Shown here piece by piece: positions 20,239 through 25,516 of a stretch of DNA of 25,516 nucleotides (position 1 is the stretch's first letter; each line of letters begins with the position of its first letter). The translations under genes were made by a program, and so were the position numbers. A model generated the notes under the pieces. It made no database searches. It was not told the origin of the DNA and was given only the letters and a program-made list of their open reading frames with translations. The stretch comes from a virus: positions 1-25,516 of the IMG/VR virus record IMGVR_UViG_3300010373_000122; one strand, written 5' to 3'.

Positions 20239-20909
20239 ACGAACCTCCCGCAGGTGTCGCCACCGCATGCCGCCAGCTTCAAAACCGGCTCGTCATCCCA
20301 TCGGCCCTGGTTCAGCCATGTCGCCGGGTTCGGGATGTACTGCCCCCCGTCCTTCAGCCATTGGTCCGACTGCGCCTGCGTCTCCACGGCTTTCAACATC
20401 CGGTCCAGCAACGGTTGATCCGGCTTGCGTTTGTCGAAGGCTTTGCGGGCGTCATCCTTGCCCACCTTCTTCGGGTAGGTCTTCCAGAAGGCGTCGAACA
20501 ACGACGAGTCACGCGACGCGTCATTCCTTTCCTTTCCTTCCTTTCCTTCCTTCCTTCCGCTTTCACGCGTGGTTGACGCGTGGTGCACGCGTGCCGGTAT
20601 CAGGCTCTCAGACTCCCTGTTGTTGATGATTTGGTGCTTGGCAAACGTGGGGATCTCGGCATAGGTCTTGCCGTCAACCTCGTAGAGCACCACGAGTCCC
20701 GCGTCTGTGAGTTCAGTGCCAAGCACATCAACGTCACAGTTGTCGCCGGGCAGGTAGCGCAGCTTGAACGTCTTTGGCTTCCACTCGAAGCGGCCTTCAC
20801 GGTCTGCCTCACACCACAGCGACACGTAAAAGAGGCGTGCAAGTGGCGACAGGGACACGATGTCTTCGCTTGTGAAGAACTCAGGTTTGATAGTGCGGAT
20901 GCGTGCCAT
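20235..20909 (-). CDS. Phage replication initiator, O-like
   Basis: A 224-residue protein starting MARIRTIKPEFFTSEDIVSL, then LARLFYVSLWCEADREGRFE and FKLRYLPGDNCDVDVLGTEL, the winged-helix domain common to phage O-like replication proteins (about residues 1-95). A low-complexity linker rich in Gly, Lys, Glu and Arg (about 115-130) follows, then a helical C-terminus (FDAFWKTYPKKVGKDDARKA, WLKDGGQYIPNPATWLNQGR) typical of loader- or helicase-contacting parts. The linker is encoded by a purine-rich tract beside 11-bp-periodic repeats (20511-20600), a candidate origin within the gene as in lambda O. Confidence 0.75.
   Translation of the reverse strand: MARIRTIKPEFFTSEDIVSLSPLARLFYVSLWCEADREGRFEWKPKTFKLRYLPGDNCDVDVLGTELTDAGLVVLYEVDGKTYAEIPTFAKHQIINNRESESLIPARVHHASTTRESGRKEGKEGKERNDASRDSSLFDAFWKTYPKKVGKDDARKAFDKRKPDQPLLDRMLKAVETQAQSDQWLKDGGQYIPNPATWLNQGRWDDEPVLKLAACGGDTCGRFV
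20511..20600. other. Candidate replication origin: 11-bp-periodic ACGCGTG repeats plus pyrimidine tract
   Basis: ACGCGT occurs at 20516-20521, 20565-20570, 20576-20581 and 20587-20592. The last three are spaced exactly 11 bases apart, with units ACGCGTGGTTG, ACGCGTGGTGC and ACGCGTGCCGG. A nearly pure C/T tract of about 40 bases (20521-20563) lies between the first and second sites. Since 11 is not a multiple of three, the periodicity is not a protein repeat. Phage initiators often bind iterons within their own gene next to a strand-asymmetric melting tract. Confidence 0.55.
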
Positions 20910-21463: not shown

Positions 21464-21688
21464 TTAGCGGGAGGCAGGGGCGCGGCGCTTGGGCTGCGTC
21501 TTCTTGTCTTGGGCTTGGAAGTAATCCAGCAGCGGCTGGATGGTCTGCACGCCGGGGTTCTCGCGGTCGTTGCAGGCGATCTTTCGCGGCAGGGTCTTGG
21601 CCACGCCGGCTTCAGAAGCGATCAGCTCCCACCGTGCGGCGCCTTCTTCACGCAGCCGACGCTTGAGAAAAGAAATGATGGTTTCCAT
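21464..21688 (-). CDS. Cro-like regulator (HTH)
   Basis: The start is ATG 21688 (METIISFLKRRLREEGAARW), giving 74 residues; a longer frame exists but its extra part crosses the promoter and operators. The segment WELIASEAGVAKTLPRKIA (about 20-38) is a helix-turn-helix, and NPGVQTIQPLLDYFQAQ follows; the C-terminus is basic. It is divergent from the repressor, with a shared operator region between them, exactly as for Cro. No Shine-Dalgarno is seen, and the promoter lies so close that the message may be leaderless. It should repress repressor synthesis in lytic growth. Confidence 0.75.
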   Translation of the reverse strand: METIISFLKRRLREEGAARWELIASEAGVAKTLPRKIACNDRENPGVQTIQPLLDYFQAQDKKTQPKRRAPASR

Positions 21689-21696
21689 GAGGACTG

Positions 21697-21741
21697 AGCA
21701 TAATCCCGAATTTGGGATTTTGTCAATCCCATTTTTGGGAT
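21697..21741 (-). promoter_or_regulatory. pR-like promoter with two OR-type operators
   Basis: On the minus strand TTGACA (21726-21721), an 18-base spacer and TATGCT (21702-21697) form the promoter. Two operators are palindromes: AATCCCGAATTTGGGATT (21702-21719), between the -35 and -10 boxes, and AATCCCATTTTTGGGAT (21725-21741), over the -35. The expected transcription start is about one or two bases before the cro ATG. A weaker rightward promoter for the repressor (TTGTCA at 21720-21725) uses the same DNA. Confidence 0.75.
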
Positions 21742-21764
21742 GCACAGCTTGCGAGACTCCGCGC

Positions 21765-22145
21765 ATGGATTCCGCTCCCCGTCACATACTTGCCAAGAAC
21801 GTCCGCGCGCTGATGAAGGCATCACGCAAACTCACCACGCTCCAGAAGCTGGCCGATGCCTCTGGCGTCTCCAAGGGGGTGGTGGAGCGCATGACCAAGG
21901 CTGAGGCCAACACAGGGATCGATCACCTAGAAGGCATAGCCAAAGCCTTCGAGATCCCTTTGTGGTTGCTGCTATCAGAGGACTTGGATCCGCTGACCAA
22001 GACACATGTGAATGTCTGGCCTTTTGAGGAACTGAGCCCGTATCAATACGCAGAGCTCCCGGACCGAAAGAAGGGCGCTATTGAGGCCAGGGTGCTGGAC
22101 CTCTACAGAGAATGGGAAATCTCGCAGAAGGCTAAAGATGACTGA
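21765..22145 (+). CDS. CI-like repressor, short form (XRE HTH)
   Basis: The start is ATG 21765, just past the operators, giving 126 residues (MDSAPRHILAKNVRALMKAS). A classical XRE helix-turn-helix lies at about 26-67 (LQKLADASGVSKGVVERMTK, then GIDHLEGIAKAFEIPLWLLL). The C-terminal region is only about 55 residues, helical and charged, with no S24 or LexA-like peptidase residues, so RecA-triggered self-cleavage is unlikely and induction must use another route. The gene is divergent from the Cro-like gene. It is probably the master repressor of the phage. Confidence 0.75.
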   Translation: MDSAPRHILAKNVRALMKASRKLTTLQKLADASGVSKGVVERMTKAEANTGIDHLEGIAKAFEIPLWLLLSEDLDPLTKTHVNVWPFEELSPYQYAELPDRKKGAIEARVLDLYREWEISQKAKDD

Positions 22146-25059: not shown

Positions 25060-25085
25060 AGGCTCTGCAATGCAGGGCCTTTTTT
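25060..25085 (+). terminator. Rho-independent terminator before the repeat gene
   Basis: AGGCTCTGC and GCAGGGCCT pair around AAT (one T-G wobble; 25060-25080) and run straight into a T tract to 25085. It isolates the following gene, which has its own Shine-Dalgarno, so antitermination or a nearby promoter is needed for its expression. Confidence 0.75.
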
Positions 25086-25116
25086 CATGGCCTGCGGGCC
25101 GCACACAGGAGAAATC

Positions 25117-25516
25117 ATGTCTGAAGCCCAAAGCACCATCATCACCAAGGCCCGAGTCAAAGCATGGGAAGCATGCTCGTCTGGATACAGCTGGTTCCTG
25201 GAGAACTACAAGCCCGCCGAGGCCGAGTTTGTGCCGGTATATCAGCACCTGATTCGCGATGACCGTGGCGGCGATGCCGATTGGCTGATGGGCAAGCTGT
25301 TCCCAGAGATCAGTGTGGAGCTGCGGGTCAAGCTGGTGACGCAGATTGCTGGCGCGGACGAGAAGCTGATTGCTGAGCAGCATGCAGCTGGTGCTCCTGG
25401 CGTGTCCACAGAAGACTGGGCCAACGCAGCGACGACGGGCTACCGGGCCAACGCAGCGACGACGGGCGAAGGGGCCAACGCAGCGACGACGGGCGAAGGG
25501 GCCAACGCAGCGACGA
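25117..25516 (+). CDS. Partial repeat protein, 3' end outside the window
   Basis: The ATG at 25117 has AGGAG six bases upstream, and the frame is open to the window end (about 133 residues). The N-terminus (MSEAQSTIITKARVKAWEAC) is helical and ordered, with WFLENYKPAEAEFVPVYQHL and DWLMGKLFPEISVELRVKLV. From residue about 102 a nine-residue repeat begins, ANAATTG plus two variable residues (YR, then EG, EG). Repeats of this AATTG type occur in phage and prophage proteins that I remember as uncharacterised; they suggest a beta-solenoid-like arm. The visible part has no enzymatic motif. Confidence 0.75.
   Translation, partial: MSEAQSTIITKARVKAWEACSSGYSWFLENYKPAEAEFVPVYQHLIRDDRGGDADWLMGKLFPEISVELRVKLVTQIAGADEKLIAEQHAAGAPGVSTEDWANAATTGYRANAATTGEGANAATTGEGANAAT
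25420..25516 (+). repeat. Perfect 27-bp tandem repeat (coding, truncated by window end)
   Basis: Units of 27 bases begin at 25420, 25447, 25474 and 25501 (the last cut off after 16 bases). The first 20 bases are identical in all complete copies; copies two and three are identical over the whole unit. Each encodes ANAATTGxx. The near-perfect identity implies recent duplication and possible length variation by slippage. Confidence 0.9.

Follow-up and report, generated by a model that had tools for sequence, protein, structure and literature searches.

A phage early gene encoding a nonapeptide array that varies mainly in two codons and turns over between fixed flanks

The repeat gene and its locus

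The window analysed here (25,516 bases) is an entire IMG/VR contig from a virus, and its last features belong to an open reading frame that stays open to the contig end (Table 1). The encoded protein begins with a YdhT-like domain followed by nine-residue units. The first-pass annotation had reported nonapeptides that start at residue 102 and are nearly identical at the DNA level, and this description holds: three full units are present, and a fourth is cut after 16 nt. All copies agree in the 21 nt that make up the seven constant codons, and the differences are confined to the last six nucleotides, which read TACCGG (YR) or GAAGGG (EG). TRF gave a period of 27 bp with 3.7 copies and 95% matches; at a lag of 27 the longest exact run measures 45 nt, and 20 shuffles never exceeded 11.

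Table 1. Features of the repeat gene and of the repressor region in the window.
Feature	Position	Strand	Details	Basis
Cro-type repressor	21464..21766	-	divergent from CI	phrog_9425, E 4e-23
CI-type repressor frame	21540..22145	+	HTH region in second half; start of rightward early operon	
Intrinsic terminator	25060..25080	+	36 nt before the start codon; nine pairs and a T-run	
Ribosome binding site	25107..25112	+	AGGAGA	sequence
Repeat gene, open at contig end	25117..25516	+	ATG at 25117	
N-terminal domain	25117..25419	+	residues 1-101; YdhT-like; motif ITKxRVKxWxACxxGYxWFL	sequence; homology
Repeat unit 1	25420..25446	+	ANAATTG-YR	sequence, TRF
Repeat unit 2	25447..25473	+	ANAATTG-EG	sequence, TRF
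Repeat unit 3	25474..25500	+	ANAATTG-EG	sequence, TRF
Repeat unit 4	25501..25516	+	16 nt, cut at contig end	sequence

The array is cut because the assembly broke off within the repeats. Of the 80 contigs found through the C-terminal cap described below, more than 40 likewise begin in or beside the array, and contig 3300008448_000275 starts and ends inside it (L014, L028); the array accounts for the break of many phage assemblies in the repeat gene. The earlier cautions, a contig-end artefact or a frame break just past the window, apply to the cut and not to the array itself. In relatives the frame stays open, with 5 to 19 units and then a conserved C-terminus. A scan of the window for Rfam families and tRNAs found none. 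A short imperfect 9-bp repeat (TTCCTTCCT) is present at 20524-20558, within the minus-strand gene for a replication protein.

The locus had been described as an accessory one with its own upstream terminator, and this is borne out in the window and in L009, L030, L012, L014 and L018. In the first four of these relatives the terminator lies at a similar place before the gene with a different stem, and in L018 it is followed by a promoter-like site, TTGACA-17-TATATT. A terminator upstream of the repeat gene was also looked for in L013, and none was found. With a terminator before the start codon, expression of the repeat gene probably depends on read-through or on a promoter of its own.

In the phages ES18, S107 and GF-2, the repeat gene comes after the N antiterminator and ahead of other genes of the early set; in ES18, gp53 lies between N and cIII/kil/erf. 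Phages of the window type have a Peptidase_S24 repressor upstream of the repeat gene and RecT, ERF and YqaJ genes downstream, with RecT detected in four of the nine records searched. In pCFSAN000929, SieB adjoins the repeat gene. Across these phages the repeat gene stands between the CI repressor and the recombination genes, in most cases behind an intrinsic terminator, as in an early-left operon.

Two side observations concern this region. Circular 5.9-kb plasmids made of the phage immunity region only are found in CP148862.1 (L131:1-5872) and similar Salmonella records; they encode CII, Cro, CI, ParA, FumD, an antiterminator and a DUF7666 repeat gene, and they recall lambda-dv plasmids. In L017 (4077-4721), a pentapeptide-repeat-like protein (NLSGAYLSDANLSGA) is encoded directly upstream of the nonapeptide gene, as a second short-period repeat protein at that place.

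Full-length relatives and three-part architecture

Four viral contigs match the N-terminal domain of the window protein at 89-91% identity. The three complete close relatives carry 19, 10 and 5 units and end in a conserved cap, some 62 residues long, with the sequence AVxAxLGxxxKAxAxxGGAIVxxHRxDDGxLxxxxAxxVGxxGIKPxxWYxLxxDGxFVE. The plan of the family thus comprises a variable N-terminal domain, 1 to about 29 nonapeptides and the conserved cap. The same arrays and caps stand behind an unrelated N-terminal domain, DUF7666, in L020, L021 and L022, and L135 represents a third type with other repeats and another N-terminal domain.

Homology of the cap reaches ES18 gp53 and phages of Pseudomonas, Salmonella and Acinetobacter, as well as GF-2 and E. 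coli YdhT. The cap turned up in 7 genomes out of 398 from Pseudomonadota, and for the family of Paracidovorax cattleyae the count was 3 out of 301. The terminase of the window has a 67% identity match in that same family, and the relatives L030 and L031 come from Paracidovorax and Acidovorax; the host of the window phage is therefore probably a relative of Acidovorax.

Within the longest arrays, L127:2998-4353 (about 29 units) and L035:2840-4189 (about 27 units), multi-unit blocks recur, which suggests multi-unit duplications. L052, L111, L112 and L113 have the cap but no intact array or N-terminal domain and are apparently broken or recombined copies. A frameshift is annotated in the repeat gene of Emek.

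Variation is concentrated in two codons

The variation was analysed in 78 distinct arrays with 629 units; a small share of these arrays was collected with a permissive pattern and contributes noise. A search of viral contigs with a 20-base degenerate unit was too loose, returning mainly single chance matches. Across the 78 arrays, the pairwise difference per site was 0.334 in the six variable nucleotides; for the constant codons it was 0.050 at third positions and 0.014 at first and second positions. The variable codons were the more diverse in 75 of the 78 arrays, with three ties (Wilcoxon p 5e-14), and in 43 arrays two or more residue pairs occur although the 21-nt background is the same in every unit.

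N, D, Y and E predominate at residue 8, and R, W, Q, Y and G at residue 9. The two are coupled: in the three main groups their mutual information is 1.28, 0.45 and 0.90 bits, compared with means of 0.21, 0.06 and 0.03 bits after shuffling. The same repertoire recurs with other codons in other lineages, for example GATTAT and TATCGA in L054. A repertoire common to lineages that use different codons indicates selection at the protein level. The order of the residue pairs within arrays looks random, and the period-2 pattern expected if alternate edges were selected separately was absent, with all lags within one standard deviation.

A serious rival explanation is that the array is a neutral minisatellite, serving as a spacer whose turns tolerate a few polar residues while unequal crossing-over does the rest. 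It would account for the random-like order and for a copy number ranging from 1 to about 29. However, homogenisation should then erase variation in the turn codons as it does synonymous variation, yet the two lie about sevenfold apart, and the variable codons stand about 15-fold above all constant sites. The non-random pairs, with residues 8 and 9 coupled well above the shuffled level, and the repertoire held in common despite different codons also argue against it, and we consider a neutral spacer rather unlikely.

Array turnover between fixed flanks

In 48 phage pairs the N-domain DNA is 100% identical, and the array matches as well in just 7 of them. L048 and L102 show zero mismatches in the 351-nt N-domain, in the cap and in 1500 nt downstream, and their arrays are three units apart. 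In the Salmonella-type L041, L048, L102, L083 and L068, the N-domains and caps are identical, while the arrays comprise 9, 5, 8, 4 and 2 units and differ in their pairs. The extended arm that varies in length and in a two-residue face, proposed at first from the window, is borne out by these comparisons and by the full-length relatives. The "recent expansion" read from the near-perfect copies is better described as continuous turnover, since copy number and pair order differ between phages with identical flanks.

A change in a single unit separates the phage-like plasmids pHPA0271-2 and pHPA0008-2, which are identical over 45,000 bp except for 3 nt, all in that unit. TACCGC in the former is GACTAC in the latter, turning YR into DY and making the unit like the preceding one. 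A short conversion is the simplest account, though the difference may also come from a polishing error in assembly; some arrays may be collapsed or mis-polished by assembly. In an evolved clone of Serratia symbiotica, exactly 54 bp were lost within ydhT_1 at 782,372, a coordinate that falls in a prophage region induced by mitomycin C (PMC12505973); the homology of this gene rests on its name and on 54 bp being two units. In contrast, the chromosomal YdhT gene is constant at 813 bp in the sampled E. coli genomes, and its units have drifted apart.

The other serious rival is a tuning of length or valency, in which the number of units alone matters, as a ruler or through avidity, and the residue pairs are secondary. 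The wide range of copy number between constant flanks would follow from it, and the removal of exactly two units during laboratory evolution (PMC12505973) is in keeping with it. Nevertheless, it leaves unexplained both the concentration of variation in two codons and the single-pair change of pHPA0008-2 at constant length, and we hold it to be unlikely.

Predicted structure and resemblance to RIIB

AF2 models of both versions of the protein, the window type and the DUF7666 type, give each unit a five-residue strand and a four-residue turn, with the variable residues in the turn. The DUF7666 model has a mean pLDDT of 78, a moderate value, and the window-type model one of 67, a low value, with confidence across its array of about 54-68. 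The N-terminal domain, described initially as helical, contains helices in the model of the close relative L008, at modest confidence. Support for a beta-solenoid fold of the array comes from these models; a fold search of the PDB with both gave no significant match (best E 0.07 and 0.99).

In a Foldseek comparison with viral models, the DUF7666 version matched T4-type RIIB (E 8e-4) over 107 columns (100-110 over the matches), with predicted models on both sides. T4 RIIB and DUF7666 have the motif C..G[LF]HxC in common. An HHalign profile comparison, built with seven rows, aligned 14 columns at the C..G[LF]H motif with a probability of 5.6%, and 1 of 100 shuffled controls was as good. T4 RIIB is annotated as protecting T4 from prophage-induced early lysis, and its known role is counter-exclusion against lambda Rex. 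Together, the resemblance and this role give a hint towards counter-exclusion, which concerns the DUF7666 sister version rather than the N-terminal domain of the window protein. In predicted structure DUF7666, including the copy in L108:4395-4740, resembles part of T4-type RIIB, and it is also listed in giant viruses.

Proposed role and remaining alternatives

The reading that we favour, tentatively and at a little under an even chance, is that of an early cytoplasmic beta-solenoid in which the variable diresidues serve as a ladder for binding; recombination would reshuffle this ladder, and its use would probably be in counter-exclusion or counter-defence. The three parts of the protein, seen in full-length relatives, are an exchangeable N-terminal domain, a nonapeptide rod and the conserved cap. 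The variable residues at the turns would stack into a ladder, N/D/Y/E beside R/W/Q/Y/G, that binds a variable partner. Homologous exchange among the 27-bp units, through slippage, unequal exchange and short conversions, would alter both length and residue order, perhaps with the aid of the phage's own RecT/Erf annealase. Expression would come from the early-left operon, often only on read-through of the upstream terminator. The protein would most likely counter an exclusion or defence system that belongs to the host or to a prophage it carries, and an anti-defence role is our best guess for the repeat protein. A PADLOC search gave no significant match.

A bolder proposal is that the order of pairs is a readable specificity code on the solenoid, in which the array picks a host factor or a molecule of a rival phage and recombination rewrites the code. 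We regard it as distinctly unlikely; if true, it would represent TALE-like recognition in a strand-based repeat, in the setting of phage-phage or phage-host conflict.

The diversity could also be one of escape, the repeat protein being an abundant early product that is sensed by a host defence and selected to avoid binding. The early operon and the diversification pattern fit this equally well, but the restricted residue set, rich in residues of binding surfaces, suggests an interaction that is kept, and escape seems improbable. It is very improbable that the gene encodes a surface, tail-fibre or adhesin protein of collagen-like or lectin-like type, despite records annotated "putative collagen-like" or "c-type lectin precursor" and a collagen profile match for GF-2. 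The gene lies in an early operon by repressor and recombination genes, away from the structural genes, and the nonapeptides have no Gly-X-Y triplets and are modelled by AF2 as strands. The surface option of the first-pass annotation likewise finds no support: by eye the N-terminus is unlike a signal peptide, the place is that of an early-left operon and the E. coli homologue belongs to the ydhYVWXUT operon.

A diversity-generating retroelement mutating the two codons, attractive where variation is limited to defined codons, was rejected as scarcely credible, since a search of six array-bearing phage records found no reverse transcriptase (PF00078), the first variable codon nearly always keeps an A at its second base where mutation would be expected, and the new pair of pHPA0008-2 copies one already in the array. 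A DNA-mimic reading was rejected as well: four DUF7666-type arrays have net charges of -4 to +5 and are not strongly acidic.

Variation in the array offers a clear, testable handle on the role of this early accessory gene, which is widespread among temperate phages, with a turnover that is measurable in the laboratory. The array is a very fast-changing coding feature, with exact units and two-codon variation while tens of kilobases stay identical, and it is also of relevance to ydhT, an uncharacterised gene of E. coli.

Comparison with known systems

The protein family itself is already catalogued, as phrog_4433, DUF7666 and YdhT; what is new are the near-perfect units with a repeat-variable diresidue and their turnover while the flanks stay fixed. 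In the literature searched, no description of array variation in this family was found, and one relevant paper was found for YdhT; searches on DUF7666, ES18 gp53 and P22 gene 17 with Fels-1 found nothing.

E. coli YdhT, the last gene of ydhYVWXUT, has the three-part plan and the N-terminal motif in common with the window type, with nonapeptides of the kind ARIGSSGxx and a related C-terminal cap. It differs in being chromosomal, with about 13 strongly diverged units. With the MG1655 ydhT as query, 59 genomes in a sample of 60 from E. coli gave a match over all 813 bp, whereas E. coli genomes searched with ES18 gp53 or GF-2 DNA gave no match. The YdhT-like order of N-terminal motif, nonapeptide array and cap is found in the window type, the cap being seen in relatives about 90% identical in the N-terminal domain. 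The close relative L008 scores 57.8 bits with the YdhT model (NF007410), against a curated equivalog cut-off of 300, and is thus a homologue of YdhT and not an equivalog. In E. coli K-12, fumD stands beside ydhYVWXUT (L118:2748-9142), and it is also near the plasmid repeat gene (L131:3718-3927); ydhT and fumD may therefore have a phage history in common.

The repeat proteins of phrog_4433, ES18 gp53 and DUF7666 resemble the window relatives in nonapeptide array, cap and operon place, and differ in having DUF7666 instead of a YdhT-like N-terminal domain. Matches to phrog_4433 cover array and cap in L008 (E 6e-27) and L009 (E 2e-30), and the partial window protein, with its N-terminal domain and first units, gave no match to it. 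DUF7666 (PF24703) scored above the Pfam cut-off in L020, L022 and L040, and had no match in the window protein or in L008 and L009. YuA_Gp49 (PF20788) reached 16.4 bits (E 0.011) with the window protein, below its 27-bit cut-off. The "collagen-like" protein of Edwardsiella phage GF-2 is 41% identical in the N-terminal domain and has a nonapeptide array and a place in the pL operon after N, but its repeats read A[RQ]IGSSGxx.

More distant likenesses are those of single features. T4 RIIB differs from the repeat proteins in having neither array nor cap. RTX nonapeptides and pentapeptide repeats form short-period beta-solenoids, but their GGxGxDxUx calcium motif and A(D/N)LXX pattern, respectively, are absent here. 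TAL effectors carry near-identical repeats with two adjacent variable residues, in arrays reshuffled by recombination; their repeats comprise 33-35 residues, are helical and bind DNA. The likeness to them lies in the pattern of diversification only, the units of the phage arrays being nine residues long and predicted to form strands.
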